DNA of 35,406 nt from Blastococcus sp. MG754426 (GTDB lineage Bacteria > Actinomycetota > Actinomycetes > Mycobacteriales > Geodermatophilaceae). The translations under genes and the position numbers were made by a program. Numbering within the stretch: position 1 is the first letter of the stretch; the number at the start of each line of letters is the position of its first letter. The stretch lies in assembly GCF_021699055.1 (NCBI RefSeq), contig NZ_SSXC01000041.1, positions 1 through 35,406 on the forward strand. The letters run 5' to 3'. Below, piece after piece: positions 3,948 through 19,768 of this stretch. The notes below the pieces were generated by a model. It saw only the letters and a program-made list of their open reading frames with translations, did not search any database and was not told where the DNA came from.

Positions 3948-3999
3948 CGCTCCCGCACCAGACGCCCGTACGACCAGCCCCCGACCACCGGAGGAACCC

Positions 4000-5004
4000 A
4001 TGCGCCGTTCCCGCTCCACCTGGCCCGTCCTGATCGCCGCGACCACGCTGACCCTCGCCGCCTGCGGTGGCGACGACGGGGAGAGCACCACCGGCGGTGG
4101 TGGCGGCGGCGACGCCGCGGCGTCGGACTACCCGACCGAGACGATCAACCTCATCGTCCCCTACGCCGCCGGTGGCCCGACCGACCTGGCCGCGCGCACG
4201 ATCGGCAGCTGCCTCGAGGAGGAGCTGGGCCAGACCGTCGTCGTGGAGAACCGCGAGGGCGCGTCCGGCTCGGTCGGCATGCAGGCGATGATCGCCGGCG
4301 GGAACGACGGCTACACGCTGTCGCTGATCGCGGTGCCGGCGTCGGCGACCAACCCGCTGCAGGACGACGTCGGCTACACCAACGAGGACTACGTCCCGAT
4401 CGCCGCGGTCACCGAGATCCCGTCGGCCCTGATCGTCGGCGAGGGCTCGCAGTTCACCACCGCCGAGGAGTTCTTCACCTACGCGGAGGAGAACCCGGGC
4501 GAGCTCAACGTCGGCGTCCCGGGCACCACGACCTCGCAGGCGATGGAGCTGCGCCGGCTCGCCGAGGAGTACGGCGTCGAGGTCACCCCCGTGCCGTTCA
4601 CCGGCAACGCCGAGATGACGACGGCGATCCTCGGTGGCAACGTCGACGCCATCTTCATCAACAGCTCGCAGGACGTGCTGGAGAACATCGACGCCGGCAG
4701 CTTCGTGCCCCTGGCGGTCAGCCCGGCCGAGCCGGTGGATTACATCGACGCGCCGACCCTGGCCGAGTCGGGCTTCGAGGAGCTGACCAGCAGCGTCTCG
4801 GTCTTCGGCCTCGCCGCCCCGGCCGGCGTGCCGGACGACGTCGTCTCGACGCTCGAGGAGACGGTGGACACCTGCCTCCAGAAGGACGAGGTCCGCGAGC
4901 AGCTCGGCGAGCAGTACGTCCCCGACGAGTTCATCGACAGCGAGGCGTTCTCCGCTCGCATCGACGACATCGTCGAGGCCTACGGGCCGATCCTGCAGGA
5001 GTGA
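4000..5004 (+). CDS. tctC: Tripartite tricarboxylate transporter solute-binding lipoprotein, copy 2
   Basis: This 334-residue TctC/Bug protein is a tandem paralogue of the preceding gene. The signal peptide ends in LTLAAC (Cys22). The same framework recurs (VPYAAGGPTDLAAR, VVENREGASGS, VPFTGNAEMTTAILGGNVDA, APAGVPDDVV). The two copies look roughly half identical by eye, with most differences in ligand-facing loops. Both keep cysteines at two matching mature positions (CLEEELGQ and TCL near the C-terminus), which could form a disulphide. A strong GGAGG (3990-3994) precedes ATG 4000. Two binding proteins feeding one TctAB pair would let the system accept two related ligands; that is inference. 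Confidence 0.92.
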   Translation: MRRSRSTWPVLIAATTLTLAACGGDDGESTTGGGGGGDAAASDYPTETINLIVPYAAGGPTDLAARTIGSCLEEELGQTVVVENREGASGSVGMQAMIAGGNDGYTLSLIAVPASATNPLQDDVGYTNEDYVPIAAVTEIPSALIVGEGSQFTTAEEFFTYAEENPGELNVGVPGTTTSQAMELRRLAEEYGVEVTPVPFTGNAEMTTAILGGNVDAIFINSSQDVLENIDAGSFVPLAVSPAEPVDYIDAPTLAESGFEELTSSVSVFGLAAPAGVPDDVVSTLEETVDTCLQKDEVREQLGEQYVPDEFIDSEAFSARIDDIVEAYGPILQE

Positions 5005-5083
5005 TCCCCCACGGCGGCGGGGACCGGCCCCGGCCGGTCCCCGCCGCCGACCGCTCGCGCACGTGCCTTCCCCCGGAGAATCG

Positions 5084-5536
5084 ATGACCAAGCAGTTGCA
5101 CCGGCTCGCGCCGCTGATCCTCGTGGTCTTCGGTGCCGCCGCGATGCTCGGCGCCCGCAACCTCGGCCTCGGCGAGCTGAGCGCGCCCGGCCCCGGCCTC
5201 TGGCCCTTCATCGTGGCCACCCTGCTCACCGTCACGGGGGTGGTGGTGCTGTTCATCGACGACCCCGAGGACTACGAGCCGTGGACCCGCGGCACGCTCG
5301 GGATCGGTCTGGGCCTGGCCAGCCTCGCGGTGTTCATCATCCTGTTCGAGACGATCGGCTTCCTGGTCTCGGCGATGCTCATGCTGCTGTTCTGGCTGCG
5401 GATCTTCGCCCGGGAGCCGTGGCGCTGGGCCGTCCCGCTCGCCGTCCTCGGCGCGCTGGCGTTCCACTTCGTCTTCGTCGAGCTGTTGTCCGTGCCGTTC
5501 CCCGACGGCGTCGTCTTCGCACCGATGGGGAGCTGA
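5084..5536 (+). CDS. tctB: Tripartite tricarboxylate transporter small membrane subunit
   Basis: The product is a 150-residue membrane protein with about four hydrophobic spans (roughly residues 8-24, 42-60, 74-104 and 115-135), the usual build of TctB. It keeps the family feature PGPGLWPFIVA after the first helix. ATG 5084 has GGAG at 5075-5078; an in-frame GTG at 5063 has no such site and would add seven residues. It lies between the binding proteins and tctA, and the tctA ATG follows its stop after three bases, implying translational coupling. TctB is thought to support the large subunit in proton- or sodium-driven uptake. Confidence 0.88.
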   Translation: MTKQLHRLAPLILVVFGAAAMLGARNLGLGELSAPGPGLWPFIVATLLTVTGVVVLFIDDPEDYEPWTRGTLGIGLGLASLAVFIILFETIGFLVSAMLMLLFWLRIFAREPWRWAVPLAVLGALAFHFVFVELLSVPFPDGVVFAPMGS

Positions 5537-5539
5537 GGC

Positions 5540-7228
5540 ATGGACATCCTCGATGGTCTCGGCCAGGGCTTCTCGGTCGCCCTCGACCCGACGAACCTGC
5601 TCTACGTCTTCATCGGCGTGCTCATCGGCACGGTCATCGGCGTGCTGCCCGGTCTCGGGCCGACGGCGACCATCGCGCTGCTGCTGCCGATCACCTACGA
5701 GATCGAGCCGGTCACCGCCGTCATCATGCTGGCGGGCATCTACTACGGGTCGATGTACGGCGGCACGATCACCTCGGTGCTGCTGCAGCTGCCCGGCGAG
5801 GCCGCCTCGGTGGTCACCACCTTCGACGGCTACCAGATGGCCAAGCAGGGCCGGGCCGGCCCCGCGCTCGGCATCGCCGCGGTGGGCTCCTGGATCGGCG
5901 GCACGGTCTCCATCGTCGGGCTGGTCCTGCTCGCGCCACCGCTGGCCGACCTGGCGGTCGAGTTCGGCGACCCGGAGTACGTGGCCCTCACCGCGCTCGG
6001 CATCCTGCTGGTCACCTACCTCGGCACCCGTCACCCGGTGAAGAGCCTGGCCATGGCCGCCCTCGGCCTGCTGCTGGCCACGGTCGGGCAGGACCTGATC
6101 ACCGGCACCAACCGCTTCACCTTCGGGTCGATCTCGCTGTTCGACGGCTTCGACTTCGTCGCCGTGGCGATGGGCCTCTTCGGCGTCGGCGAGATCCTCT
6201 ACAACGTCGAGAAGACCGAGAAGGCGCAGGCGCTCAAGAGCAAGATCAAGGACATCTGGCCGAGCCGCAAGGACTTCAAGGACTCCTCCGGCGCGATCGC
6301 CCGTGGCTCGGTGCTCGGCTTCTTCCTCGGGGTGCTCCCCGGCGGTGGTGGCGTCATCTCCTCGCTCGCCTCCTACGGGATGGAGAAGCGCCGCGCCAAG
6401 GATCCGACCCGCTTCGGCAAGGGCGCCATCGAGGGCGTCGCCGGCCCCGAGACGGCGAACAACGCCTCGTCCACCTCGGCGTTCATCCCGCTGCTCACCC
6501 TCGGGATCCCGCCGAACGTCGTGCTGGCGCTGATCTTCGGCGCGCTGCTGCTCAACGGCGTCCAGCCGGGCCCGCAGCTGATCGACCAGCAGCCCGAGAT
6601 CTTCTGGGGCGTCATCGCCTCGATGGCGGTCGGCAACCTGATGCTGCTGGCCCTGAACATCCCGCTCGTCGGGTTCTTCGTCCAGCTGCTGCGGGTGCGC
6701 GCCGGCATCCTCGCCGCGTTCGCCCTGCTGGTCACGATGGCCGGCGTCTTCTCGGTGAACAACGACGTCTTCGACATGTGGGTCGTGCTGGTGTTCGGCA
6801 TCATCGGCTGGCTGATGAAGAAGACCGGTTTCGAGCCGGGGCCGCTGGTGCTGGCGTTCGTCCTCGGCTCGATCCTGGAGGAGTCGTTCCGCCGGTCCAT
6901 GCTGATCTCGGGCGGCGAGGTGTCGATCTTCTTCACCCGGCCCATGTCGGGCACGCTGTTCGCCCTGATGGCGCTGGTGGTCATCTGGAGCACCGTCCAG
7001 GGGATCCGCCGCCGGCGGCGTCGCAGCCGTCCGTCGATGCCGGGCGAGGAGGACCTCGCGGCGACCGGCACCACCGCCGAGCCCGAGGGCACGCCCGGCT
7101 ACGAGAACACCGACGACGCGGCGGGCGCCCCGGCCGGGGCGCCGCGGGAGGGCTCCGGCTCCACCGGCGCGCCGGGTTCGACCGCCTCGAAGGCGCAGGA
7201 CGGGGGGCCGGGCCCTGACCGCGGCTGA
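5540..7228 (+). CDS. tctA: Tripartite tricarboxylate transporter large permease subunit
   Basis: The 562-residue polytopic protein has the TctA family's repeated glycine-rich motifs: GVLIGTVIGVLPGLGPTATIALLLP near the N-terminus and the matching second-half LGVLPGGGG. It also has MYGGTITSVLL, PETANNASSTSAFIPLLTLGIP and PLVLAFVLGSILEESFRRS. About a dozen membrane helices are expected. It forms the transport pathway with TctB and receives substrate from the TctC proteins. The last 60 or so residues (after RRRRRRSRPS) are a hydrophilic Gly/Pro/Ala/Glu-rich tail not usual for the family; it looks disordered and cytoplasmic. The gene starts three bases after tctB and is followed after 45 bases by the CoA-transferase genes. 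Confidence 0.95.
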   Translation: MDILDGLGQGFSVALDPTNLLYVFIGVLIGTVIGVLPGLGPTATIALLLPITYEIEPVTAVIMLAGIYYGSMYGGTITSVLLQLPGEAASVVTTFDGYQMAKQGRAGPALGIAAVGSWIGGTVSIVGLVLLAPPLADLAVEFGDPEYVALTALGILLVTYLGTRHPVKSLAMAALGLLLATVGQDLITGTNRFTFGSISLFDGFDFVAVAMGLFGVGEILYNVEKTEKAQALKSKIKDIWPSRKDFKDSSGAIARGSVLGFFLGVLPGGGGVISSLASYGMEKRRAKDPTRFGKGAIEGVAGPETANNASSTSAFIPLLTLGIPPNVVLALIFGALLLNGVQPGPQLIDQQPEIFWGVIASMAVGNLMLLALNIPLVGFFVQLLRVRAGILAAFALLVTMAGVFSVNNDVFDMWVVLVFGIIGWLMKKTGFEPGPLVLAFVLGSILEESFRRSMLISGGEVSIFFTRPMSGTLFALMALVVIWSTVQGIRRRRRRSRPSMPGEEDLAATGTTAEPEGTPGYENTDDAAGAPAGAPREGSGSTGAPGSTASKAQDGGPGPDRG

Positions 7229-7273
7229 CCGTTCCTGCCCGGCACCTCGTCACGCCGCACCACCGGAGGCGCA

Positions 7274-7939
7274 GTGATCGACAAGAGGGTCGGCTCGCTG
7301 GCCGCCGCGGTCGAGGGCGTCGAGGACGGCGCGACCGTCCTCGTGGGCGGGTTCGGGGCCGCGGGGGTGCCGGTCGAACTGGTGCACGCGCTGCTGGAGC
7401 AGGGCGCGAAGGACCTGACGATCGTCACCAACAACGCCGGGAGCGGGGAGACCGACGTCGCCGCGCTCATCCGCGAGCGGCGGGTGCGGAAGATCATCTG
7501 CTCGTACCCGCGGTCGGCCGGCTCCATCTGGTTCGAGGAGTTCTACCGGGCGGGGGACATCGAGCTCGAGCTCGTGCCGCAGGGCACCCTCAGCGAGCGG
7601 ATGCGCGCCGCCGGGGCGGGCCTGGGTGGCTTCTTCACCCCGGCGGGCGCGGACTCGCTGCTGGCCCGCGGCAAGGAGGTGCGCGTGATCGGCGGACGAC
7701 GGCACGTCTTCGAGGAGCCGCTGCGCGGTGACGTCGCGCTCGTGCAGGCGCTGCGGGCGGACCGCTGGGGCAACCTGGTCTACAACAAGGCGGCGCGGAA
7801 CTTCGGCCCCACGATGGCCACCGCGGCCGAGCTCACCGTGGTGCAGGTGCGGGCGTTCGTCGAACTCGGTGAGCTGGACCCCGAGGCCGTCGTGACCCCG
7901 GGCATCTTCGTCGACCGGGTCGTGGAGGTGGCGGCGTGA
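7274..7939 (+). CDS. pcaI: 3-oxoacid (probably 3-oxoadipate) CoA-transferase, subunit A
   Basis: The 221-residue product matches the alpha subunit of family I CoA-transferases. The glycine-rich CoA region reads VGGFGAAGVP (24-33), followed by LTIVTNNAG, RVRKIICSYPRS, ELELVPQGTL, GFFTPAG and RWGNLVYNKAARNFGP. The overall pattern recalls PcaI of the beta-ketoadipate pathway more than the acetoacetate-type ScoA. Together with the next gene it should move CoA from succinyl-CoA to a 3-oxo acid in the cytoplasm. GTG 7274 follows CCGGAGGCGCA, a good ribosome binding site. It overlaps the B-subunit gene by four bases (GTGA). Ring-cleavage genes are not in the window, so 3-oxoadipate as substrate remains likely but unproven. 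Confidence 0.85.
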   Translation: MIDKRVGSLAAAVEGVEDGATVLVGGFGAAGVPVELVHALLEQGAKDLTIVTNNAGSGETDVAALIRERRVRKIICSYPRSAGSIWFEEFYRAGDIELELVPQGTLSERMRAAGAGLGGFFTPAGADSLLARGKEVRVIGGRRHVFEEPLRGDVALVQALRADRWGNLVYNKAARNFGPTMATAAELTVVQVRAFVELGELDPEAVVTPGIFVDRVVEVAA

Positions 7940-8613
7940 CGGCCACCCCGCTGTCGCACACCGGTATGGCCGCCCGGGTGGCCCAGGACATCCCCGACGG
8001 CTCCTACGTGAACCTCGGCATCGGCATGCCCACGCTCGTCGGGAACGTCGTCTCCGCCGGCAAGGAGATCGTCTTCCACAGCGAGAACGGCATCCTCGGC
8101 ATGGGACCGGCCCCGGCCGCCGGCGAGGAGGACTGGGAGCTGATCAACGCCGGCAAGGCGCCGGTGACGCTGGTGCCCGGTGGCTCCTACTTCCACCACA
8201 CCGACTCGTTCATGATGATGCGCGGCGGCCACATCGACGTCACCGTGCTCGGCGCCTTCCAGGTCTCCGCGCAGGGCGATCTGGCGAACTGGGCCACCGA
8301 CGACGCGCACCTGCCCCCGGCGGTCGGCGGCGCGATGGACCTCGCGGTCGGCGCCAAGCGGGTGCTGGTGCTGATGATGCACACCACGCCCGACGGCCGG
8401 CCCAAGCTGCTGCCGGAGTGCACCTACCCGCTGACCGCCGCGCAGGTGGTCGACCGCATATACACCGAGCTCGCGGTCATCGACGTGACCCCGGCCGGGT
8501 TCCTCGTGCGGGAGATGGTCGAGGGGCTCACCCGGGAGGAGCTCGAGCGGCGCACCGCCGCGCCGCTGGCCTACGCGGACGAGGTGACCGTCCTGGCGCC
8601 GCCGGTCCGGTGA
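7936..8613 (+). CDS. pcaJ: 3-oxoacid (probably 3-oxoadipate) CoA-transferase, subunit B
   Basis: This 225-residue beta subunit partners the preceding gene. VNLGIGMPT (25-33) and SENGILGMGP contain the conserved features of the family, including the catalytic glutamate that forms the acyl-CoA intermediate (E50 in SENG). Further PcaJ-like blocks are GGSYFHHTDSFMMMRGGH, VLGAFQVS, GDLANW and CTYPLTAAQVVDRIYT. The GTG start shares bases with the A-subunit stop. It is the last gene of the catabolic set; about 380 bases of apparent non-coding DNA follow before the heptose operon. Confidence 0.87.
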   Translation: MTATPLSHTGMAARVAQDIPDGSYVNLGIGMPTLVGNVVSAGKEIVFHSENGILGMGPAPAAGEEDWELINAGKAPVTLVPGGSYFHHTDSFMMMRGGHIDVTVLGAFQVSAQGDLANWATDDAHLPPAVGGAMDLAVGAKRVLVLMMHTTPDGRPKLLPECTYPLTAAQVVDRIYTELAVIDVTPAGFLVREMVEGLTREELERRTAAPLAYADEVTVLAPPVR

Positions 8614-8937: not shown

Positions 8938-8959
8938 AACACTTCAAGCCCGTAGTGTT
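8938..8959. promoter_or_regulatory. Inverted-repeat operator candidate upstream of heptose operon
   Basis: AACACT (8938-8943) and AGTGTT (8954-8959) form an inverted repeat with a 10-base spacer, ending about 31 bases before the ATG at 8991. The inner 20 bases (8939-8958) match 16 of 20 bases of the palindrome at 19749-19768 upstream of the UDP-glucuronate decarboxylase gene. The location suits a repressor or activator site; the binding protein is unknown. Confidence 0.45.
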
Positions 8960-8990
8960 TCGCCCGTACGAGAACGGGCAGGACGCGATC

Positions 8991-10481
8991 ATGCTCGCGC
9001 AGTGCACCGTCGTCGTGCCGACGATCGGACGTCCCTCCCTCGACGTCCTGCTCGACGCGCTCGCCGCTGCCCCGGGCCCGCGCCCGGCCGAGCTGATCGT
9101 GGTCGACGACCGCCCCACCGGCGAGCCGCTGGAACCCGACCGCCCCGGGCTGCCGCCGGTCCGGGTGGTGCGCACCGGGGGAGGCGGTCCCGCCCGGGCC
9201 CGCAACCTGGGGTGGCGCACCGCCCGCACCGGGTGGATCGCCTTCCTCGACGACGACGTCGTCCCCGATCCCGACTGGTACGAGCGGCTGGCCGCCGACC
9301 TGGCGGACCTGCCCGAGGACATCGGCGGCAGCCAGGGCCGGGTCCGCGTGCCGCTGCCCGAGGACCGCCGGCCCACCGACTGGGAGCGCGGTACGGCCGG
9401 CCTGGCCACCTCCAGCTGGATCACCGCCGACCTGGCCTACCGCCGCAGCGCGCTCGCCGCGGTCGGCGGCTTCGACGAGCGCTTCCCGCGGGCCTTCCGC
9501 GAGGACTCCGACCTCGCCCTGCGGGTCATGGACACCGGCTCCCGGCTGGTGCGCGGCGAGCGGTGGATCACCCACCCGGTCCGGCCCGCCGACCGCTGGG
9601 TCAGCGTCCGGGTGCAGGCGGGCAACGCCGACGACGTGCTCATGCGCCGGCTGCACGGGCCGGACTGGCGCGACCGGGCCGACGCCGCGCTCGGCCGCCG
9701 CCCCCAGCACACGGCGGTCACCGCCGCCGCCCTGGCCGCCGTGGGCCTGGCCGCGGCCCGCCGCCCCCGGGCCGCGCTCGCCGCGGCGGCCGCCTGGGCC
9801 GCGGGTACCGCGGAGTTCGCCTGGCGCCGGATCGCCCCCGGCCCGCGCGACCGCGCCGAGGTGACGACGATGCTCGCCACCAGCGCGCTCATCCCGCCGC
9901 TGGCCACCTGGCACTGGCTGCGCGGGGTGGTCCAGCACGTGGGCGTGCGGCGGTGGCGCGGCCTGCCCGACCTGGTGCTCTTCGACCGCGACGGCACGCT
10001 GGTGCACGACTTCCCCTACAACGGCGACCCCGAGTGGCTGCGGCCGGTCGACGGGGCCCAGCAGGCCCTCGACCGGCTGCGCGCCCGCGGGGTGCGGGTC
10101 GGCGTGGTCAGCAACCAGTCCGGCGTCGCCCGCGGGCTCATCACCTCCGACCAGGTGGACGCCTGCATGAAGCGGCTCGACGAGCTGCTCGGCCCCTTCG
10201 AGACGGTGCAGGTGTGCCCGCACGGCCCGGACGACGGCTGCGACTGCCGCAAACCCGCGCCCGGCATGGTGCTGGCCGCGTGCGCGGAGCTCGGCGTCGA
10301 CCCGGCCCGCTGCGTCGTCATCGGCGACATCGGCGCCGACGTCGAGGCGGCGGCCGCCGCCGGTGCCCGCAGCATCCTGGTGCCCACCCCGGTCACCCGC
10401 CGCGAGGAGGTGGCGGCGGCACCGCAGCGGGCCGCGACCCTGCCCGAGGCGGTCGACGACGTCCTGGCCGGGCTGTGGTGA
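8991..10481 (+). CDS. GT2 glycosyltransferase fused to GmhB-like heptose-bisphosphate phosphatase
   Basis: This is a 496-residue two-domain protein. Residues about 1-230 are a GT2 family transferase: VVVPTIGRPSLDVLL at the N-terminus, an LDDDV acidic metal/nucleotide-sugar site (87-89) and FREDSDLALR later on. The middle (about 240-310) is Ala-rich with two hydrophobic stretches that may touch the membrane. Residues about 325-496 are a HAD phosphatase of the GmhB type: FDRDGTL (nucleophile D332, acid D334), VVSNQSGVARG, a zinc-binding CPH...CDC cluster (C409, H411, C417, C419) followed by RKPAPGM, and VIGDIGADV. GmhB removes the 7-phosphate of heptose-1,7-bisphosphate. ATG 8991, with GGCAGGA upstream, is preferred over GTG 8955, which lies inside the inverted repeat. 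The next gene overlaps by four bases. Confidence 0.88.
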   Translation: MLAQCTVVVPTIGRPSLDVLLDALAAAPGPRPAELIVVDDRPTGEPLEPDRPGLPPVRVVRTGGGGPARARNLGWRTARTGWIAFLDDDVVPDPDWYERLAADLADLPEDIGGSQGRVRVPLPEDRRPTDWERGTAGLATSSWITADLAYRRSALAAVGGFDERFPRAFREDSDLALRVMDTGSRLVRGERWITHPVRPADRWVSVRVQAGNADDVLMRRLHGPDWRDRADAALGRRPQHTAVTAAALAAVGLAAARRPRAALAAAAAWAAGTAEFAWRRIAPGPRDRAEVTTMLATSALIPPLATWHWLRGVVQHVGVRRWRGLPDLVLFDRDGTLVHDFPYNGDPEWLRPVDGAQQALDRLRARGVRVGVVSNQSGVARGLITSDQVDACMKRLDELLGPFETVQVCPHGPDDGCDCRKPAPGMVLAACAELGVDPARCVVIGDIGADVEAAAAAGARSILVPTPVTRREEVAAAPQRAATLPEAVDDVLAGLW

Positions 10482-11554
10482 GCGCCCGGCGGACCGTCCT
10501 GGTCGCCCGGCTGGACAACGCCGGCGACGTCCTCCTCCAGGGCCCCCTCGTGCGGGCCGTCGCCCACGGCGCCGACCGTGTCGTGCTGCTCGCCGGTCCG
10601 GCCGGCGCCGCGGCGGCCGGCCTGCTCCCCGGCGTCGACGAGGTCTGGACCTGGGCCTGCCCCTGGATCCTGGGCGACCCCCCGCCCGTCGCCGCCGACG
10701 ACCTCGCCGCGCTCACCGAGCGCGTGCGGGCGCTCGCGCCCGACGAGGCGGTCATCTCGACGTCGTTCCACCAGTCGCCCCTGCCCCTGGCGCTGGTGCT
10801 GCGCGCGGCGGGCGTGCCCCGCATCTCGGCGATCAGCGTGGACTACCCCGGCACGCTGCTCGACGTCCGCCACCGCGTCGAGGACGACCTGCCCGAGCCC
10901 GAGCGGGCGCTCTCGCTCGCCCGGGCCGCCGGGTTCGAGCTGCCGGCCGGCGACGACGGCCGGCTGGCGGTGCGACGACCCCTGCCCCCGGTCGCGCACC
11001 CACCCGGCTACGTCGTCGTCCACCCCGGCGCCTCGGTGCCGGCCCGCGCCTGGCCGGCGCACCGCTGCGCCGAGGCGGTCGAGGCGCTCGCCGACGCCGG
11101 CCACCGGGTGCTGGTCACCGGCGGGCCGGGGGAGCGGGAGCTCACCGCCGCCGTCGCAGGGCACCGCGGCGTGGACCTCGGCGGGGCCACCTCGCTGGCC
11201 GAGATGGCCGCGCTGCTCGACGGGGCCGCGGCGGTCGTCGTCGGCAACACCGGCCCCGCGCACCTGGCGGCCGCCGTCGGCACGCCCGTCGTCTCGCTGT
11301 TCTCGCCGGTGGTCCCCGCCGCCCGCTGGGCGCCCTACGGCGTGCCCACCGTGCTGCTGGGCGACCAGTCGGCCCCCTGCGCCGGCACCCGGGCCCGCGA
11401 GTGCCCCGTGCCCGGCCACCCCTGCCTCACCGAGGTGACCGCCTCCGACGTGGTCGCCGCGGTGGAGAAACTGCTCGCGGTCCAGCAGCCGGCCGCCGAG
11501 CGCACCCCTCGCGCAGCCCGCGAGGTGGCGACGAGCACCTGGGTGAGAGCGTGA
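10478..11554 (+). CDS. GT9 ADP-heptose:glycan heptosyltransferase-like protein (first copy)
   Basis: The 358-residue protein shows the GT9 (WaaC/WaaF/RfaF) pattern: VLVARLDNAGDVLLQGPLV at the N-terminus, a central VVVHPGASVPARAWP, VLVTGGPGERE, and the C-terminal donor site VGNTGPAHLAAAVGTPVVSLFSP. The family transfers heptose from ADP-heptose; in Gram-negatives the acceptor is LPS core. Here the acceptor must differ because no lipid A genes are seen. The GTG start overlaps the preceding TGA (GTGA), so translation is probably coupled. The unusual cysteines near the end (CAGTRARECPVPGHPC) resemble the Cys-containing tail found in some actinobacterial GT9 proteins. Confidence 0.88.
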   Translation: MSARRTVLVARLDNAGDVLLQGPLVRAVAHGADRVVLLAGPAGAAAAGLLPGVDEVWTWACPWILGDPPPVAADDLAALTERVRALAPDEAVISTSFHQSPLPLALVLRAAGVPRISAISVDYPGTLLDVRHRVEDDLPEPERALSLARAAGFELPAGDDGRLAVRRPLPPVAHPPGYVVVHPGASVPARAWPAHRCAEAVEALADAGHRVLVTGGPGERELTAAVAGHRGVDLGGATSLAEMAALLDGAAAVVVGNTGPAHLAAAVGTPVVSLFSPVVPAARWAPYGVPTVLLGDQSAPCAGTRARECPVPGHPCLTEVTASDVVAAVEKLLAVQQPAAERTPRAAREVATSTWVRA

Positions 11555-12534
11555 AGATCCTGATCTGGCACGTGCACGGCTCCTGGACGACGGCGTTCGT
11601 CCAGGGCCGCCACGAGTACCTGCTCCCGGTGACGCCGGGACGCGACGGCGACGGGCTCGGCCGGGCCCGCACCTGGGACTGGCCGGCGTCGGCACGGGAG
11701 GTCACCCCCGCCCAGCTGCGGGACGAGGAGCAGCCCGACGTCGTGGTGCTGCAGCGCCGGCGCGACCTCGAGCTGTGCCGCGAGTGGCTGGGGCGCGAAC
11801 CGGGCCGCGACCTGCCCGCGGTGTTCCTGGAGCACAACGCGCCCGGTCTGGAGCCGGGGGACGGTCCGGTCCCGCACACCCGGCACCCGCTGGCCGACCG
11901 CGACGACATCCCGATCGCGCACGTCACCCACTTCAACGAGCTGTTCTACGACAACGGCCGGGCGCCGACGACGGTGATCGAGCACGGCATCGTCGACCCG
12001 GGGGAGCGGTGGACCGGCGAGCTGGGCCACGCCGCCGTCGTCACCAACGAGCCGGTCCGCCGCGGGCGCACCGTCGGCGCCGACCTGCTGCCCGGGCTGG
12101 CCGCGGTCGCACCCGTCGACGTCTTCGGCATGGGGCTCGCCGGCCTGCACGAGCAGCACGGGCTGGACCCGGCGCGGGTGACCCTGTTCGACGACCCGCC
12201 CCAGCACGCCATGCACGCCGAGCTCGCCCGTCGCCGGGTGTACGTGCACCCGGTGCGCTGGACGTCGCTCGGGCTCTCCCTGCTGGAGGCCATGCACCTG
12301 GGCATGCCCGTGGTCGCGCTGGCCACCACCGAGGTGGTCGAGGCGGTGCCTGCCGACGCCGGCGTCATCTCCACGCGCCCGGATCGTCTCTGGCAGGGGG
12401 TGCGCCGGTTCCTCGACGACCCGGACGCCGCCCGGCTGGCCGGCAAGGCCGCCCGCGCGGCCGCACTGGAGCGCTACGGCCTGGCGCGCTTCCTGCACGA
12501 CTGGGACGCGCTCCTCGAGGAGGTGACCCGGTGA
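11551..12534 (+). CDS. GT4-like glycosyltransferase
   Basis: The product is a 327-residue GT-B fold protein. The N-terminal half is short (MKILIWHVHGSW, then VVVLQRRRD and AVFLEHNAPG). The C-terminal half carries the GT4-type nucleotide-sugar site with RVYVHPVRWTSLGLSLLEAM followed by GMPVVALATTEVVEAV, where the ExxxxxxxE motif is represented only loosely. It resembles the actinobacterial glycosyltransferases found next to GT9 genes. It overlaps both neighbours by four bases. It probably adds one sugar in the same glycan; donor and acceptor are unknown. Confidence 0.8.
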   Translation: MKILIWHVHGSWTTAFVQGRHEYLLPVTPGRDGDGLGRARTWDWPASAREVTPAQLRDEEQPDVVVLQRRRDLELCREWLGREPGRDLPAVFLEHNAPGLEPGDGPVPHTRHPLADRDDIPIAHVTHFNELFYDNGRAPTTVIEHGIVDPGERWTGELGHAAVVTNEPVRRGRTVGADLLPGLAAVAPVDVFGMGLAGLHEQHGLDPARVTLFDDPPQHAMHAELARRRVYVHPVRWTSLGLSLLEAMHLGMPVVALATTEVVEAVPADAGVISTRPDRLWQGVRRFLDDPDAARLAGKAARAAALERYGLARFLHDWDALLEEVTR

Positions 12535-13745
12535 GGATCGATCTGGTCAGCGAGCACGCCAGCCCGCTCGCCGCGATCGGCGGCGTCGACGCCGGCGGGC
12601 AGAACGTGCACGTCGCGGCGCTGGCGGCCGGGCTGGCGAAGCGCGGTCACGAGGTGACCGTGCACACCCGCCGGGACGACCCGTCGCTGCCCGAGCGGGT
12701 CGTCGTGCAGGACGGGTACAACGTCGTCCACGTCACCGCCGGGCCGGCCGAGCCGCTGCCCAAGGACGAGCTGCTCCAGCACATGCCGGCCTTCGCGCGG
12801 GTGCTGCGGCACGGCTGGGCGGCGCAGCCCCCCGACGTCGTGCACGCGCACTTCTGGATGAGCGGCCTGGCGTCGGTCGAGGCCTCGGCCAGCCTGCTCG
12901 CGCCGGTGCCGGTGCTGCAGACCTTCCACGCCCTCGGCTCGGTCAAGCGCCGGCACCAGGGCGACGCCGACACCTCGCCCGCCGAGCGGATCGACCTGGA
13001 ACGCGGGCTGTGCCGCGACGTGGCGCACGTGGTGGCCACCTGCTCCGACGAGGTGTTCGAGCTGCGCCGCCTGGGGTTGACCAGCGACCGCGTCTCGATC
13101 GTGCCCTGCGGCGTCGACACCTCGGTGTTCACGCCCCGCGGCCCGGTCGCCGCGCGGGGCGACCGGAAGCGGCTCCTGGTCCTGGGCCGGCTGGTCGAGC
13201 GCAAGGGGCAGGACGACGCGGTCCGGGCGCTGTGCGCGGTGCCCGACGCCGAGCTCGTCGTCGTCGGCGGCCCCCCGGCGGGGGAGCTCGACGCCGACCC
13301 CGAGGTGCAGCGGCTGCGCGGCCTCGCCGGCGAGGCCGGGGTCGCCGACCGGCTGGTGTTCACCGGCGCCGTGGCCCGCGCCGACGTCCCGGCGTGGATC
13401 CGCTCGGCCGACGTCGTCCTCGCCGTCCCCTGGTACGAGCCCTTCGGCATCACCCCGCTGGAGGCCATGGCCTGCGCCCGGCCGGTCGTGGCCACGGCCG
13501 TCGGCGGGCTGCAGGACACCGTCGTCGACGGGGTCACCGGCGACCTGGTGCCCCCGCGCGACCCCGAGCGCCTCGGCGCGGTGCTCGCCGCGCTGCTCGC
13601 CGACGACGAGCGGCGCGCCGCCTACGGCGCCGCGGGCGTGAAGCGGGCCCGCACCCGCTACCGCTGGGCGCGCGTCGTCGCCGACACCGAAACCGTCTAC
13701 CGCCAGGTGCTCACCCGGCGCAGCCCCGTGGAGGTCGCCCGATGA
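12531..13745 (+). CDS. GT4 glycosyltransferase, sucrose-phosphate-synthase/MshA-like
   Basis: The 404-residue protein has both GT-B halves. The N-terminal acceptor domain begins LVSEHASPLA and has the glycine-rich GGVDAGGQNVHVAALA, then DVVHAHFWMSG. The C-terminal donor domain has LLVLGRLVERKGQD and the complete E(x7)E motif in WYEPFGITPLEAMACARPVVAT. The N-terminal motif is closer to sucrose-phosphate-synthase-like GT4 proteins than to the GTGDAGGMNVYV form of mycothiol MshA, and the gene sits inside a heptose operon, so I do not call it mshA. GTG 12531 overlaps the previous stop, and its own stop overlaps the next ATG (ATGA). Confidence 0.87.
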   Translation: MRIDLVSEHASPLAAIGGVDAGGQNVHVAALAAGLAKRGHEVTVHTRRDDPSLPERVVVQDGYNVVHVTAGPAEPLPKDELLQHMPAFARVLRHGWAAQPPDVVHAHFWMSGLASVEASASLLAPVPVLQTFHALGSVKRRHQGDADTSPAERIDLERGLCRDVAHVVATCSDEVFELRRLGLTSDRVSIVPCGVDTSVFTPRGPVAARGDRKRLLVLGRLVERKGQDDAVRALCAVPDAELVVVGGPPAGELDADPEVQRLRGLAGEAGVADRLVFTGAVARADVPAWIRSADVVLAVPWYEPFGITPLEAMACARPVVATAVGGLQDTVVDGVTGDLVPPRDPERLGAVLAALLADDERRAAYGAAGVKRARTRYRWARVVADTETVYRQVLTRRSPVEVAR

Positions 13746-14422
13746 GCGTCAGCCCGCACTCCTTCTTCGAGAACGTCGTCGAGGTCCCGGCGCCGGACAC
13801 CTGCACGCACCTGACCGGGGCCGACCACGTCGCCTCGCTGCGCAACGCGCTGCGCTCGCTGGAGGAGCAGCTGCCGGTGCTGGACCGCTGGGGCCGGCTG
13901 CTGGCCGACGTCCTCTGCGGGCCGTCCCGCGGCCGGCTGCTGGCCGCGGGCAACGGCGGCAGCGCCGCCCAGGCCCAGCACCTCACCGCCGAGCTGGTGG
14001 GCCGCTACCGCGCCGACCGCCCGCCCTTCTCCGCCATCTGCCTCACCGCGGAGACCTCCTCGCTGACCGCGATCGCCAACGACTACCCGGCCGACGAGCT
14101 GTTCGCCCGGCAGGTGGAGGCGCACGGCCGCGCCGGCGACGTGCTGGTCCTGCTGTCGACGTCGGGCCGCTCGCCCAACGCGGTCGCCGCGGCCCGGCGC
14201 GCCCGCGAGTGCGGCATCACCACGCTCGCGATCACCGGCCCGGCGCCCAACCCGCTGGCCGCCGCGGCCGACGACGCGGTCTGCATCGACTCCCCGTGGA
14301 CCGCCACGGTGCAGGAGTGCCACCTGGCCGCTCTGCACCTGGTCTGCGCCGCCTTCGACGCGGCCGTGCTGGCCGAACCGCCCCGGGTGCCCACGGGGCC
14401 GGCGTTCGAGGCGGCGAAGTGA
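13742..14422 (+). CDS. gmhA: Phosphoheptose isomerase (sedoheptulose-7-phosphate isomerase), SIS domain
   Basis: The 226-residue SIS-domain protein has the GmhA signature AGNGGSAAQAQHLTAELVGRYR, in which E84 matches the catalytic glutamate of E. coli GmhA. LLSTSGRSPN forms the second phosphate-binding loop, and QECH (H194) matches the catalytic histidine of the QEIH motif. It should convert sedoheptulose 7-phosphate into D-glycero-D-manno-heptose 7-phosphate in the cytoplasm, the first step of ADP-heptose synthesis. The N-terminal 30 residues are longer than in the E. coli enzyme. The next gene, hldE, supplies the following steps and overlaps by four bases. Confidence 0.92.
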   Translation: MSVSPHSFFENVVEVPAPDTCTHLTGADHVASLRNALRSLEEQLPVLDRWGRLLADVLCGPSRGRLLAAGNGGSAAQAQHLTAELVGRYRADRPPFSAICLTAETSSLTAIANDYPADELFARQVEAHGRAGDVLVLLSTSGRSPNAVAAARRARECGITTLAITGPAPNPLAAAADDAVCIDSPWTATVQECHLAALHLVCAAFDAAVLAEPPRVPTGPAFEAAK

Positions 14423-15783
14423 GCGGCCGGCCGCTGGTCGTCGTGGGGGACGCGCTGCTCGACGTCGACCTGGTCGGCACCGCGTCGCGGCTGACCCCCG
14501 ACGCCCCGGTGCCGGTGGTGGAGGACGTCGAGCGGCGGGAGCGCCCCGGGGGCGCGGCGCTGGCGGCGGTCATCGCCGCCGCGGCGGGCTCGCGCGAGGT
14601 GGTGCTCGTGACACCGATGGACGCCGACGAGGACGCCGACCGGCTGCGGGCCCTGCTCGCCGGGCGGGTCCGGCTGGTCGAGATCCCGGCCACGGGCGGC
14701 ACCGCCGTGAAGCAGCGGGTGCGCGTGGGCGACCACTCCGTCGCCCGGCTGGACAGCGGCGCGCCCGTCGCCGTGCTCGGCGAGCTCCCGGCCGCGGCCG
14801 CGGAGGCGATCCGCGACGCCGCCGCCGTCCTCGTCGCCGACTACGGCCGGGGAACGACGGCCGACGCCGCCGTGCGCGCGGCGCTGGCCGGGGCCCGCGG
14901 TCCCGTGGTCTGGGACCCGCACCCGCGCGGTGCCGACCCGGTGCCCAGCGCGCGGCTGGTCACGCCCAACGGCGCCGAGGCGGCCCGGGTGGTCCCGGCC
15001 GTCGACGGCGAGGGCCTCGCCGCTGCCGGCGCCCGCGCGGAGGCGCTCATCCGGCACTGGGGCGTCGGCGCGGTCGCGGTGACGATGGGTGCCCGCGGCG
15101 CGCTGCTCTCCTACGGCACCGGGGCACCGATGGTCGTGCCCGCGGCGGCGGTGACCGGGGGCGACCCCTGCGGCGCCGGTGACTCGTTCGCGGCGGCCGC
15201 GGCGCTGGCCCTCGCCGACGGCGCGGTGACCGGCGAGGCGGTGGCCGCCGCGGTGGCGTTCGCCTCCGCGTTCGTCGCCCGCGGCGGGGCGGCCGCGTGG
15301 GACGCCGACGAGCGGGTCGAGGGGGCGGCTCCCGAGCCCGGGGCGGACGGCGTCATCGCGCGGGTGCGCGCGGCCGGGGGCACCGTCGTCGCCACCGGGG
15401 GCTGCTTCGACCTGCTGCACGCCGGGCACGTCGCCACCCTCCGCGCCGCCCGCGGGCTGGGCGACTGCCTCGTCGTGTGCATCAACTCCGACGACTCCGT
15501 GCGCCGGCTCAAGGGTCCGACCCGGCCGCTGGTCACCGCGGCCGACCGCGCCCGGGTGCTCGAGGCGCTGGAGTTCGTCGACGCCGTGGTGGTCTTCGAC
15601 GAGGACACCCCCACGCAGGTGCTCGACCGGCTGCGCCCCGACGTCTGGGCCAAGGGCGGCGACTACGCCGGCGCGGTCCTGCCCGAGGCCGAGGTGCTGC
15701 GCAGCTGGGGCGGCCAGGCCGTCGTCCTGCCCTACCTCGACGGCCACTCGACCACGGCCCTGGTCGAGCGCTCCCGCGTATGA
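14419..15783 (+). CDS. hldE: Bifunctional heptose-7-phosphate kinase / heptose-1-phosphate adenylyltransferase
   Basis: The 454-residue fusion has a PfkB-family sugar kinase (about 1-305) and a cytidylyltransferase-like nucleotidyltransferase (about 318-454). The kinase begins VVVGDALLDVDLVG, contains APVPVV and ends with GGDPCGAGDSF, whose GAGD (252-255) holds the catalytic base D255. The second domain has ATGGCFDLLHAGHVATL with HAGH (334-337), INSDDSV and WAKGGDY. In E. coli HldE these domains make heptose-1,7-bisphosphate and then ADP-heptose; the 7-phosphate is removed between them by GmhB, here fused to the first gene of this operon. The order kinase then transferase is the standard one. 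The GTG start overlaps the gmhA stop. Confidence 0.93.
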   Translation: MSGRPLVVVGDALLDVDLVGTASRLTPDAPVPVVEDVERRERPGGAALAAVIAAAAGSREVVLVTPMDADEDADRLRALLAGRVRLVEIPATGGTAVKQRVRVGDHSVARLDSGAPVAVLGELPAAAAEAIRDAAAVLVADYGRGTTADAAVRAALAGARGPVVWDPHPRGADPVPSARLVTPNGAEAARVVPAVDGEGLAAAGARAEALIRHWGVGAVAVTMGARGALLSYGTGAPMVVPAAAVTGGDPCGAGDSFAAAAALALADGAVTGEAVAAAVAFASAFVARGGAAAWDADERVEGAAPEPGADGVIARVRAAGGTVVATGGCFDLLHAGHVATLRAARGLGDCLVVCINSDDSVRRLKGPTRPLVTAADRARVLEALEFVDAVVVFDEDTPTQVLDRLRPDVWAKGGDYAGAVLPEAEVLRSWGGQAVVLPYLDGHSTTALVERSRV

Positions 15784-16742
15784 CGCCCGCCGCGCGCCTA
15801 CGGCCGGTGGGCGTGGACAGGCCGGCTGCGGTCGTCCTCCGGCCGCTGGGGCTGGGGGACCTGCTGGCCGGGGTGCCCGCGATCCGCGCGGTGCGGGCCG
15901 CCGTGCCCGGTCACCGGCTGGTGCTGGCGACGACGACGGCGCTGCAGCCGCTCGCCGGCCTGATCGACGCCGTCGACGAGGTGCTGCCCGCCCGCGAGCT
16001 GGAGCCGCTGGACTGGCCGGGGCCACCACCCGAGCTCGCCGTCGACCTGCACGGCAAGGGCCCGGCCTCGCACGTCGTCGTCGCCGACCTGCACCCGCGG
16101 CGGCTGCTCACCTTCGCCAGCCCCGGCTACCCCGGGCCCACCTGGTACCCCGACGAGCACGAGGTCCGGCGCTGGTGCCGGCTGGTCTCCGAGGGGCTGG
16201 GCGTGGAGGCCGACCCCGACGCGCTGGACGTCGCGGCGCCGGCCGTGCCCCCGCCGGTCCGCGGCGCCACCGTCGTGCACCCCGGGGCGGCGTTCCCCGG
16301 CCGGCGCTGGCCCGCGGAACGCTTCGCCGCCGTCGCCCGGCACCTCACGGGACGCGGCCACGACGTGCGGATCACCGGCGGCCCCGCGGAGGTGGAGCTC
16401 GCCCGCTCGGTGGCCGCGGCGGCCGGGCTCCCGGGCTCGGCCGTCATCGCCGGCCGGACGACGTCGCTGGAGCTGGCCGCGGTGGTGGCCGCCGCACGGC
16501 TGGTCGTGTGCGGCGACACCGGCGTGGCGCACCTGGCGACCGCCTACCGGCGGCCGTCGGTGGTGCTCTTCGGCCCGGTGTCGCCGGCGCTGTGGGGGCC
16601 GCCGCCGCGCCCGCAGCACGTGGTGCTCTGGCACGGCGACGGCACCGGGGACCCGTGGGGCACCGACCTCGACCCCGCGCTGGCCCGCATCACCGTGGAC
16701 GAGGTGCTGGTCGCCCTGGACGCGCTGCCGCACCACCCCTGA
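15780..16742 (+). CDS. GT9 heptosyltransferase-like protein (second copy)
   Basis: This is a 320-residue GT9 protein distinct from the one at 10478. It has VVLRPLGLGDLLAGVPAIRAVR at the N-terminus, LAVDLHGKGP, VVHPGAAFPGRRWPAERFA at the domain junction and VVCGDTGVAHLATAYRRPSVVLFGPVSP in the donor site. Two GT9 enzymes in one operon suggest that at least two heptose residues, or one heptose and one related sugar, are added. ATG 15780 overlaps the hldE stop (ATGA). It is the last gene of the seven-gene chain and faces the VWA gene across a 176-base convergent gap. Confidence 0.88.
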   Translation: MTPAARLRPVGVDRPAAVVLRPLGLGDLLAGVPAIRAVRAAVPGHRLVLATTTALQPLAGLIDAVDEVLPARELEPLDWPGPPPELAVDLHGKGPASHVVVADLHPRRLLTFASPGYPGPTWYPDEHEVRRWCRLVSEGLGVEADPDALDVAAPAVPPPVRGATVVHPGAAFPGRRWPAERFAAVARHLTGRGHDVRITGGPAEVELARSVAAAAGLPGSAVIAGRTTSLELAAVVAAARLVVCGDTGVAHLATAYRRPSVVLFGPVSPALWGPPPRPQHVVLWHGDGTGDPWGTDLDPALARITVDEVLVALDALPHHP

Positions 16743-16918: not shown

Positions 16919-18559
16919 TCAGCCGCGCTGGCGGAGGGCGTCGAAGAGGACCAGCTGCAGGTCCTCCTCCTCGACGGCCGAGTACGCGGCACCGCCGGTG
17001 GCCTCCGCGATCTGCTCGAGCGCGCTGAGGTCGGCGTCCGGCCCCAGGGCCACGCCGATCACCTTGACCGGCCGGTCCGGGTCGGCCTCGGCGGCGAGGG
17101 TGCTCAGCAGGGCGTCGAGGCTCGTCCCCTCGGCGTCGTCCTCGTTGGTCCCGTCCGTGACGACGAGGACGCTGTTCACCGCCGTCGGGTCGTAGTAGTC
17201 CTCCCGCGCGGCGCGCACGGCGGCCAGCGTGGTGTCGTACAGCCCGGTCCCGCCGGGGGACAGCCGGCCGGGGATGGTGTCCAGCTGCTCGTCGAGCACC
17301 TCGCGCTGGGTCTGCCCGTCGACGGAGGCGTCCAGCTCGCGGGTGGGCACCAGCTCCGTCCAGTCCTGGTCGCCCTCCAGCTCGTAGGCGAACGCCCAGA
17401 GGCCCAGGGCGTAGTCGCCGGGGACGAGGGTGAGGGTGCTCTTGGCGGCGTCCCGGGCGAGGGTGGCCCGCGTGCCGCCGTTGACCGGGGCCTCCATCGA
17501 CGTGGAGACGTCGAACACCGTCAGGACGCGCGACGGGGCGGCCAGGCTGGAGAGCCGGGTCAGCAGCCCCTGCACCTGCGCGGCGTCGAGGGCCAGCACC
17601 TCCGGCGCCGCCTCGGCGATCCCGGTGTCCCCGCCGGCGCCGGGCGGGGCATCGCCCTCGGGCCCGCGGAAGCCGGCGTCGCGGACGGCGTCCTGCGCGT
17701 CCTGCGACAGCAGGCGGTCGGTCACGACCTCGACGGCGCGCGCCTCGGCGTCCGTGGGCACGCCGACGCGCAGCACCGGGTAGTCCAGCACCGGGGAGCC
17801 CTCGGCGGGGTAGACCGCGAGGAGCGCGGAGTCCTCGGCCTCCTGGTGGATGGCGTAGACCTCCTGCTCGCTCACCGGCACCAGCGGGGCGTCGCCCCCG
17901 CCCTCGCTGCCGGCCGTCAGGGCCTCGCTCGCGGAGAGCTCGGTGCTCCGGGCGGCGGCGAGCACGGCGGCCACCACGGCGTTGTCGGCGTCCTCGTCCG
18001 CGCCGAGGGCGCTGCGCACCGCGGCCAGCGCGGAGAGCGCCTCCGCGCTCGCGGCGAGGTCCGGCACGGCCAGCGGCCGCTCGGTGCCCAGCGCCTCGGC
18101 CCAGCCGGGCCCGCCGTCGGCCCACCCGAGGTCGTCGACGACGGACTCGCTGGTGGCCAGGACGACGGGGGAGACCGCCATCGAGCCGACCTGCTCCAGC
18201 TCGGCACCGCCGGCGACCCGGGCCGGCCACAGCGACGAGTCGGGCACCCACACGTCCGGCAGCACGTCCTCGCCGAGCGCGCCCAGGTCACCCGCGGTCT
18301 GGAGCGGCTGCTGGGCGGTCACCTCGGCGCTGACGCACAGGGCGTCGTCGGGGGACTCGACCGAGCTCAGCAGCTCCTCGGTCAGCGTGCCGAGTTCGGG
18401 GGCCACGGTGACGTCCACCGTGACCTCCTCGTCGCACCCGCCGCTGCCGGCCACCCACCAGACCAGGCCGCCGAGGGCCAGGGCGATCGCCAGGCCGGCG
18501 GCGACGAGCACGAAGGGCACCGAACGGCGCGTGGCTGCGGGATCTGCGTGACGGCCCAT
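16919..18559 (-). CDS. Membrane-anchored VWA-domain protein with solute-binding-like region
   Basis: The 546-residue product has a short basic N-terminus and one membrane helix (about 15-37); the rest should be outside the cell. Residues about 45-310 resemble the extracellular solute-binding fold found in substrate-binding/VWA hybrids of actinobacteria (LPDVWVPDSSLW, a typical SBP-like segment). Residues about 343-545 are a von Willebrand A domain with an intact MIDAS: DVSTS (D350, S352, S354), T438 in GGTG and D469 in VTDG. The ATG start has an AGAGAG-type site upstream. It converges on the heptose operon and lies upstream of nothing on its own strand within 175 bases. A divalent-metal-dependent adhesion or scaffold role at the cell surface is plausible, but no function is known to me. 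Confidence 0.8.
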   Translation of the reverse strand: MGRHADPAATRRSVPFVLVAAGLAIALALGGLVWWVAGSGGCDEEVTVDVTVAPELGTLTEELLSSVESPDDALCVSAEVTAQQPLQTAGDLGALGEDVLPDVWVPDSSLWPARVAGGAELEQVGSMAVSPVVLATSESVVDDLGWADGGPGWAEALGTERPLAVPDLAASAEALSALAAVRSALGADEDADNAVVAAVLAAARSTELSASEALTAGSEGGGDAPLVPVSEQEVYAIHQEAEDSALLAVYPAEGSPVLDYPVLRVGVPTDAEARAVEVVTDRLLSQDAQDAVRDAGFRGPEGDAPPGAGGDTGIAEAAPEVLALDAAQVQGLLTRLSSLAAPSRVLTVFDVSTSMEAPVNGGTRATLARDAAKSTLTLVPGDYALGLWAFAYELEGDQDWTELVPTRELDASVDGQTQREVLDEQLDTIPGRLSPGGTGLYDTTLAAVRAAREDYYDPTAVNSVLVVTDGTNEDDAEGTSLDALLSTLAAEADPDRPVKVIGVALGPDADLSALEQIAEATGGAAYSAVEEEDLQLVLFDALRQRG

Positions 18560-18677: not shown

Positions 18678-19664
18678 TCAGGCGGTGGTGGTCACGGCCG
18701 TCCGCTGGGAGGCGAACCACGCGACGGTGCGGCGCAGCCCCTCCTCGGAGGTCACCTGCGGGCGCCAGCCCAGCAGCCGCTCGGCGCGGGTGGTGTCGGG
18801 GCGGCGCACCTTGGGGTCGTCGACGGGCAGGGGGATGTGCTCGATGGGGGAGTCCGACCCGGTGAGCTCCACGATCCAGCGCGCCAGCGCCAGCATCGAC
18901 AGCTCGTCGGGGTTGCCGATGTTGACCGGGCCCGGGTGGTCGGAGAAGGCCAGCGCCAGGATGCCCGCGACGGTGTCGTCGACGTAGCAGATCGAGCGGG
19001 TCTGGGAGCCCGTCCCGGCGACGGTCAGCGGCCGGCCGTCCAGCGCCTGGTTGACGAACGCGGGGATCGCGCGGCCGTCGTCGGCACGCATCCGGGGCCC
19101 GTAGGTGTTGAAGATCCGGACGATGCCGGTGTCGGTGCCCTTCGACGTCCGGTAGGCGGTGGTCATCGCCTCGCTGAACCGCTTGGCCTCGTCGTAGACG
19201 CCGCGCGGGCCGACCGGGTTGACGTTGCCCCAGTACTCCTCGGTCTGCGGGTGCTGGAGCGGGTCGCCGTAGACCTCGGAGGTGGAGGCCAGCACGTACC
19301 GGGCGCCCTTGTCGTGGGCCAGGCCCAGCGTGTGCAGGGTGCCCAGGCTGCCGACCTTGAGCGTCTCGATCGGCATCTTCAGGTAGTCGATCGGGCTGGC
19401 CGGCGAGGCGAAGTGCAGCACCAGGTCCACCGGTCCGGGGACGTGCACGTAGTCGGTGACGTCGCAGCGGACCAGCCGGAAGCCCGGGTGCTCCATCAGG
19501 TGCGAGACGTTCTCGGGGGCACCGGTGAGGAAGTTGTCCAGGCAGACGACCTCGACACCGCGTTCCAGCAGCTGCTCGCAGAGGTGGGAGCCGAGGAAGC
19601 CCGCCCCTCCGGTGACCACCGCCCGCCGGATGGTGCGTTCCTGGCCTACCGGTCCGTCGACCAT
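18678..19664 (-). CDS. UDP-glucuronate decarboxylase (UDP-xylose synthase), extended SDR
   Basis: The 328-residue extended short-chain dehydrogenase begins with a Rossmann motif GGAGFLG (19-25). It has [25 protein letters not shown] (with T128, S129, E130) and the catalytic YxxxK as Y157/K161 in GVYDEAKR. These blocks, with [14 protein letters not shown], are characteristic of UXS enzymes, which oxidise UDP-glucuronate at C4, decarboxylate it and reduce it to UDP-xylose using bound NAD. HldD-type ADP-heptose epimerases lack this set. AGGAGG lies 9 bases before ATG 19664. Placement beside the heptose glycosyltransferases suggests that xylose or another UDP-glucuronate-derived sugar enters the same glycan; that is inference. 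Confidence 0.87.
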
Positions 19665-19748: not shown

Positions 19749-19768
19749 ACACTTCGAGAGCGAAGTGT
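19749..19768. promoter_or_regulatory. Perfect inverted repeat upstream of UDP-glucuronate decarboxylase gene
   Basis: ACACTTCG (19749-19756), a four-base AGAG spacer and CGAAGTGT (19761-19768) make an 8-bp perfect inverted repeat about 85-104 bases upstream of the - strand start at 19664. It shares 16 of 20 bases with the element at 8939-8958. Operator is preferred over terminator because a separate, much stronger hairpin already follows livK and because of the shared sequence. Confidence 0.5.

Follow-up and report, generated by a model that had tools for sequence, protein, structure and literature searches.

Why would a Gram-positive actinobacterium carry an operon of the kind that serves the inner core of lipopolysaccharide (LPS) in Gram-negative bacteria? 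The question is raised by positions 8991-16742 of a 35,406-nucleotide stretch of Blastococcus sp. MG754426 (assembly GCF_021699055.1, contig NZ_SSXC01000041.1, positions 1 to 35,406), the whole of which is called the window here. Seven genes in it encode GmhA- and HldE-like enzymes, a GmhB-like phosphatase and several glycosyltransferases. Our best explanation as a whole, to which we assign a probability of roughly 0.55, is that they are this strain's version of the cwg ("cell wall glycan") operon of actinobacteria, described in Streptomyces coelicolor, and that this operon leads to a heptose-bearing, probably pentose-bearing, carbamoylated glycan of the cell envelope.

The operon and its gene products

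The seven genes lie on the forward strand and, by the coordinates of their open reading frames, all six junctions are four-base overlaps, as a previous reading made from the sequence only had stated; each frame is backed by codon-position GC.

8991-10481, + strand: GT2 glycosyltransferase/GmhB-like HAD phosphatase fusion, 496 aa (Pfam, NCBIfam, structure matches)
10478-11554, + strand: GT9a, GT9 glycosyltransferase, heptosyltransferase-like (Pfam, NCBIfam)
11551-12534, + strand: GT4s, short GT4-type glycosyltransferase (Pfam; model of a homologue GT-B-like)
12531-13745, + strand: GT4m, GT4 glycosyltransferase, MshA-like, under the MshA cut-off (Pfam, NCBIfam)
13742-14422, + strand: GmhA-like sedoheptulose 7-phosphate isomerase (Pfam, NCBIfam, structure matches, motifs)
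14419-15783, + strand: HldE, putative heptose 7-phosphate kinase and heptose 1-phosphate adenylyltransferase (Pfam, NCBIfam, structure matches, motifs)
15780-16742, + strand: GT9b, GT9 glycosyltransferase, heptosyltransferase-like (Pfam, NCBIfam)

Pfam recognizes, in this order, GT2 plus HAD, GT9, GT4 (C-terminal domain only), GT4, SIS_2, PfkB plus a cytidylyltransferase-like domain, and GT9. In the first protein the GT2 match covers residues 6-114 and the HAD phosphatase approximately 328-488. The sequence-only reading had called this gene a GmhB domain, which suits the HAD half and passes over the N-terminal GT2 half of the fusion. The HAD half fits GmhB best, among models (119.7 bits, hisB 47.4) as well as structures (GmhB 1.2e-22, HisB 3.7e-12). 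A two-helix membrane anchor in the fusion was considered and rejected, a hydropathy scan revealing no clearly hydrophobic stretch of 19 residues.

The nucleotidyltransferase domain of HldE is the sole heptose-enzyme model to exceed its NCBIfam cut-off (185.9 vs 181.5 bits). For GmhA, the HldE kinase domain, whole HldE, GmhB and both GT9 proteins, the named families are the top heptose matches at sub-cut-off scores. GmhA resembles solved phosphoheptose isomerases (1.9e-37), and HldE matches the nucleotidyltransferase 5x9q (2.9e-35; deposited as a putative cytidylyltransferase) and the heptose 7-phosphate kinase 4e84 (2.7e-18). The HldE motifs HxGH and G(A/T)GD are kept in 48 of 48 operon copies, GNGGS(A/S) and QExH in 44 of 46 GmhA copies, and a CxH...CxC loop in 49 of 53 phosphatase-type proteins (two clusters, including GT2-only members); we take these residues to be catalytic or zinc-binding. 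GT4m scores 220.2 bits against the MshA model (NCBIfam cut-off 462.5). The homologue of GT4s in locus L101 has a GT-B-like predicted model (predicted local distance difference test, pLDDT, 91) whose top Foldseek match is PimB' (2.0e-10, low identity), the serine-rich-protein glycosyltransferases GtfA and SdgB ranking lower; judged by this model, the short GT4 is a predicted GT-B enzyme.

Distribution and conservation

Gene order was compared in 60 neighbourhoods, 20 from the family Geodermatophilaceae and 40 from a phylum sample, representing 21 families in all. In 40 of these the nine operon domains share a strand, and in 33 (18 family loci and 15 outside; 11 families) they follow exactly the order of the window. 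Because the same nine-domain order recurs so often, the arrangement is non-random and far above chance. The other 27 are cut by contig ends, lack a part, contain an HldE paralogue instead or are rearranged, as in family f2 (loci L086-L090), where the two GT4 genes take the lead. Identity to the window proteins is approximately 45-75% outside the family. A second scan, based on aligned short GT4 sequences, gave at least 573 relatives, of which 80 loci were retained, mainly from Streptomyces and also from Micromonospora, Pseudonocardia, Saccharopolyspora, Actinacidiphila, Conexibacter, and Thermoleophilia, Acidimicrobiales and Streptosporangiaceae assemblies; the exact order is present in 41, the rest being cut, rearranged, incomplete or built around an HldE paralogue. 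Three assemblies labelled Dormibacteraeota/Eremiobacterota (L139, L176, L195) carry parts of the operon, through transfer or binning error.

When 112 Geodermatophilaceae genomes were surveyed with the HldE nucleotidyltransferase model, 102 gave some match, 88 a match over the cut-off and 95 a strong one (E < 1e-45, a line of our own). In the phylum sample (396 genomes of at least 90% completeness) 52 matched at 1e-35 and 48 over the cut-off. The operon is real, old and widespread in actinobacteria, and not a one-strain oddity. The sequence-only reading had called for a comparison of gene order in the family and other actinobacteria, as given above; its surprise at finding such an operon in a Gram-positive actinobacterium is not supported, given the spread through the phylum, the fit with the S. 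coelicolor cwg operon and published ADP-heptose in Streptomyces.

Purely vertical inheritance within the family is only partly borne out. A FastTree phylogeny of four joined proteins from 51 loci places the main clade together with genus g7, and genus g8 with families f7 and f8. An additional HldE-type gene, accompanied by GT9 and GT2 genes of its own (clusters c16 and c17), is present in five loci (L098, L099, L100, L109, L119) and may belong to another heptose system. A classical short-chain dehydrogenase/reductase (SDR) ending in SWP or SYP (e.g., L101:9849-10562) follows HldE in 30 of the 60 loci (at least 45% identity) and is missing from this family's main clade and most Streptomyces loci. 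The best candidate for its counterpart (SDR c4) in the Blastococcus genome scores 172 bits, ends in GWP and is not clearly an orthologue.

Heptose chemistry

ADP-heptose synthesis by the operon enzymes is to be expected from their families, and we regard it as highly probable. Since HldD matches in this genome stay under the cut-off (best 112 bits; cut-off 274.6), the pathway probably ends at the D-glycero form. The epimerase-like gene at 18678-19664 was considered for the HldD role and rejected, reaching 53 bits against the same cut-off and proving to be a homologue of UDP-xylose synthase. To this extent the previous proposal of ADP-D-glycero heptose stands; the heptose transfer that accompanied it we only infer. 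LpxC was found in none of 108 family genomes, the same search being positive in 4 of 14 controls, and an LPS system was rejected on this result, no genome-wide search for Kdo or O-antigen genes having been made; the sequence-only reading had noted no lipid A, Kdo or O-antigen gene in the window.

In the accessible portion of PMC11573728, promiscuous heptose nucleotidyltransferases of the STTR5 type are characterized by the motif (F/L)XXGRSTT. The window HldE has YLDGHSTT, with His at the key place, and nucleoside triphosphate promiscuity was rejected on this measure; the His speaks for ADP as the nucleotide here. Among 48 operon HldE copies this position is Arg in 25 and His in 18 (16 of them from this family's main clade), the motif not being found in five; copies of the motif mostly start with Y, the published one with F or L.

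Partner genes and a shared palindrome

Three features go beyond what had been noticed before, namely a UDP-xylose synthase gene, an unlinked carbamoyltransferase and a palindrome shared by the operon and the xylose gene.

18678-19664, - strand: UDP-glucuronate decarboxylase (UDP-xylose synthase, UXS) homologue (human UXS1 9.4e-100; best match of another kind 2.8e-35)
8939-8958, + strand: palindrome ACACTTC-N6-GTAGTGT, probable operator, 32 bases before the first operon gene; longer conserved core at 8942-8960
19749-19768, - strand: the palindrome again, 84 bases ahead of the UXS gene

A NodU/TobZ-like carbamoyltransferase gene adjoins the operon in 33 of the 60 loci, from 18 families, in most cases immediately ahead of GT2, and its closest structural relatives are O-carbamoyltransferases (the novobiocin enzyme, TobZ, GdmN). 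In the window's clade it is out of the operon and retained elsewhere, here on another contig (G000:C181, 551 aa; L122:9967-11622). Tabulated for 108 of the 112 family genomes, it occurs with strong HldE in 91, HldE alone in one (G069, 79% complete), carbamoyltransferase alone in three (G016, 98%; G037, 84%; G095, 70%) and neither in 13, giving a Fisher p of 3.7e-13 that ignores shared ancestry. The more telling joint losses are those of G028 and G030, both at least 99% complete and members of genus g2, in which G023 has the two genes on different contigs. A UXS homologue (at least 55% identity) is present in 26 of the 60 loci (families f1, f2, f6, f7 and f8); it heads the operon in Streptomyces loci and in the window lies nearby, outside it. 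Both the carbamoyltransferase and the UXS gene appear to work together with the operon.

Within the window, ACACTTC-N6-GWAGTGT gives four strand-matches at two places, where 0.04 are expected. In the whole genome it is found at one mismatch or fewer only before the operon and before the xylose gene; two mismatches add three further sites, on par with the reversed control (two). At one mismatch it is present in 21 of 23 genus genomes, the reversed control being positive once. The pair lies 10.5-12.7 kb apart in 12 of these 23 (14 if core matches are added); eight have the operon site only and one (G010) the other site only, and G014 has two extra sites. Visual comparison of 16 family loci shows the site ahead of the xylose gene in 10, in part in degenerate form.

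The 19-base core upstream of the operon is identical or one base off in the window and 14 family loci, these being the main-clade loci whose sequence reaches far enough upstream, and its flanks are variable. It is present in 22 of the 23 genus genomes and in 1 of 17 other genomes searched. In this genome it is a single site even at three mismatches, and the element was accordingly rejected as the target of a global regulator. A leader-RNA reading was set aside; by eye, in one sequence (A3), pairing would be possible between GCCCG in the element and a CGGGC ahead of the start codon. The palindrome is probably an operator that co-regulates the operon and the xylose gene. Its occurrence at two places in the genome, and the joint presence or absence of operon and unlinked carbamoyltransferase, provide specific predictions that can be tested at the bench.

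Nature of the product

In the mechanism that we propose, the GT9, GT4 and GT2 enzymes would assemble a short heptose-containing oligosaccharide, the GT9 proteins being the likely users of the heptosyl donor. The nearby UDP-xylose synthase would probably supply a pentose to it, and the unlinked NodU/TobZ-type carbamoyltransferase may decorate it, as proposed for WapO on Pseudomonas core heptose. The product would most likely be a cell-envelope glycolipid or a wall-attached oligosaccharide of defined length, the latter property being favoured because Pfam recognizes no polymerase, flippase or ligase among the seven operon proteins.

A number of points weigh against this envelope oligosaccharide. 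Most of the heptose enzymes score well under their NCBIfam cut-offs, including GmhA (152.9 vs 276 and 145.2 vs 209.45 bits), the HldE kinase domain (127.6 vs 345), whole HldE (266.5 vs 521) and GmhB (119.7 vs 178). The GT9 pair falls far short of WaaC/WaaF/WaaQ (best 64.9 vs 170.2 and 75.6 vs 185.3 bits), and "heptosyltransferase" is therefore a family name here, not a demonstrated substrate. Of the 112 family genomes, 17 have no strong HldE match, and in 6 of 16 family loci (L069, L070, L072-L075) no palindrome is visible ahead of the xylose gene. The window lacks the SDR that follows HldE in other lineages, and the GT2 pair that would follow GT9b (the cwgK/L position) was not found in it, no search of the rest of the genome having been made. 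As to the carbamoyltransferase, in genera g7 and g8 the two genes are linked and joint loss is trivial, and informative joint losses (e.g., G028 and G030) are few. Gene content, conserved order, co-occurrence and the shared palindrome are computed; from these we infer the activities, regulation, heptose transfer, acceptor, location, and use of xylose and carbamoyl groups. Whole-cell sugar tables for Geodermatophilaceae, in the part of the source accessible (PMC9686282), do not mention heptose, and one table of 13 strains lists xylose for two; a Geodermatophilus description mentions neither sugar in its accessible part (PMC4119925). Routine whole-cell sugar methods may overlook a minor component.

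Among the alternatives, a small soluble heptoside, such as a sugar on inositol or another small acceptor whose role would be that of a stress solute, a cofactor or a signal rather than an envelope component, is the one that we would rank highest, as an unlikely explanation that still deserves attention. GT4m is nearest to MshA, which glycosylates an inositol phosphate, the GT2-HAD fusion has no clear hydrophobic stretch, and the relatives of the carbamoyltransferase are of the TobZ/GdmN/novobiocin type, which use small-molecule substrates. However, the MshA score is less than half of the cut-off, five glycosyltransferase domains are many for such a product, and the matching S. coelicolor operon is described, in the part of PMC6767563 available, as responding to cell-wall antibiotics and sigmaE. 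That regulation, together with the cwg name, would also suit a wall or capsule polymer built from heptose-containing repeats. We consider this improbable, since the seven genes and the identified recurring neighbour clusters contain no polymerase, flippase or ligase, the rest of the genome not having been searched.

Two further readings seem more doubtful again. Heptose might be placed on proteins, as by Gram-negative GT9-type or autotransporter heptosyltransferases; E. coli is known to heptosylate proteins from ADP-heptose, according to the excerpt available of PMC11461863, and the GtfA and SdgB matches of the GT4s model would agree with it. Nevertheless the operon includes no conserved substrate protein and several different transferases, and we give this reading little credence. 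We think it slightly less probable still that the GmhA- and HldE-like enzymes use a sugar other than heptose. The sub-cut-off scores of most operon enzymes would allow this, but the operon brings GmhA, GmhB and both HldE functions together in a gene order that is conserved, the HldE nucleotidyltransferase domain does exceed its cut-off, and the closest solved structures of GmhA, GmhB and the kinase are heptose enzymes.

The envelope oligosaccharide might be extended, as a tentative proposal that we hold less probable than not, to many actinobacteria, which would carry an old, shared, carbamoylated heptose-xylose envelope oligosaccharide made by a cwg-type operon, a Gram-positive counterpart of the LPS inner core, with an operator of its own in this family. 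ADP-heptose is a ligand of the ALPK1 sensor. If the proposal is true, ADP-heptose is placed in many soil and filamentous actinobacteria, and such bacteria are a source of it for ALPK1, other lineages perhaps supplying CDP- and UDP-heptose too.

Other features of the window

753-1163, + strand: MarR-family regulator, candidate only (76-86% identical to the MarR directly before the operon in 12 family loci)

The MarR gene of the window is parted from the operon by genes at 1267-8613 for a thiamine-diphosphate enzyme, a tripartite tricarboxylate transporter (two TctC, TctB, TctA) and two CoA-transferases; in other genera of the family it sits immediately before the operon. Binding of the palindrome by the MarR protein is no more than a guess. 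The 546-aa product of 16919-18559 (- strand), a gene that separates the xylose gene from the operon, has no Pfam match, and its cluster occurs in 15 loci of this family only. Two tRNA-Ser genes and the small signal recognition particle RNA are found at 30383-30470, 32754-32839 and 33995-34090.

Comparison with known systems

The operon shares GmhA, HldE, GmhB and GT9 transferases with the Gram-negative LPS inner-core pathway, with the HldE nucleotidyltransferase domain alone over its cut-off. Unlike that pathway, the Blastococcus genome has no HldD over the cut-off, the family has no LpxC (108 genomes) and the GT9 proteins are under the WaaC/WaaF/WaaQ cut-offs. Commentaries on Tang et al. 2024, as far as available, describe heptose enzymes across kingdoms (PMC11461863, PMC11573728), and, according to a review (PMC10221265, in part), ADP-heptose is made by two species of Streptomyces in the course of septacidin and hygromycin B production. 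Those pathways likewise place ADP-heptose in a Gram-positive actinobacterium; they are strain-specific antibiotic clusters, whereas the Blastococcus operon is near universal in its family (strong HldE in 95 of 112). In Pseudomonas the putative carbamoyltransferase WapO (PA5005) is assigned to core heptose (PMC8005017, available part); it too ties carbamoylation to heptose, a likeness of description, the sequences not having been compared.

The closest parallel is the cwg operon, reportedly regarded as a putative operon for a cell wall glycan from Hong et al. 2002 onwards. In S. coelicolor it comprises 12 genes (SCO6179-6190), with cwgH, labelled phosphoheptose isomerase, and cwgI, labelled bifunctional synthase/transferase, in eighth and ninth place among transferases (PMC5839063, accessible part). 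Vancomycin induces it, partly via sigmaE, and its product is a "predicted" wall glycan (PMC6767563, accessible part). We found no paper in the open-access literature that links it to heptose. The comparison rests on the published labels and on other Streptomyces loci, the S. coelicolor sequence itself not being included. Locus L174 (S. coelicoflavus), for instance, has 12 genes in the order UXS, carbamoyltransferase, GT2, HAD, GT9, GT4, GT4, GmhA, HldE, GT9, GT2, GT2; cwgD, labelled a dehydratase, would correspond to the HAD protein. By eye, an AAC-N19-TC upstream of the window operon resembles the published cwg promoter (PMC6767563, same part) and is not kept in L063, L066 and L069. In this Blastococcus the first gene joins GT2 to the phosphatase, the carbamoyltransferase gene has another place in the genome, the xylose gene forms a convergent unit of its own, GT9b is not followed by a GT2 pair and the upstream element is different. 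Gene order from GT2/HAD through GT9b is the same, the labels of cwgH and cwgI fit GmhA and HldE, and UDP-xylose synthase and carbamoyltransferase would, from L174 and other Streptomyces loci, be members of both systems. If this correspondence is correct, the unknown cwg glycan gains a concrete predicted composition, namely heptose, probably xylose, and an O-carbamoyl group.

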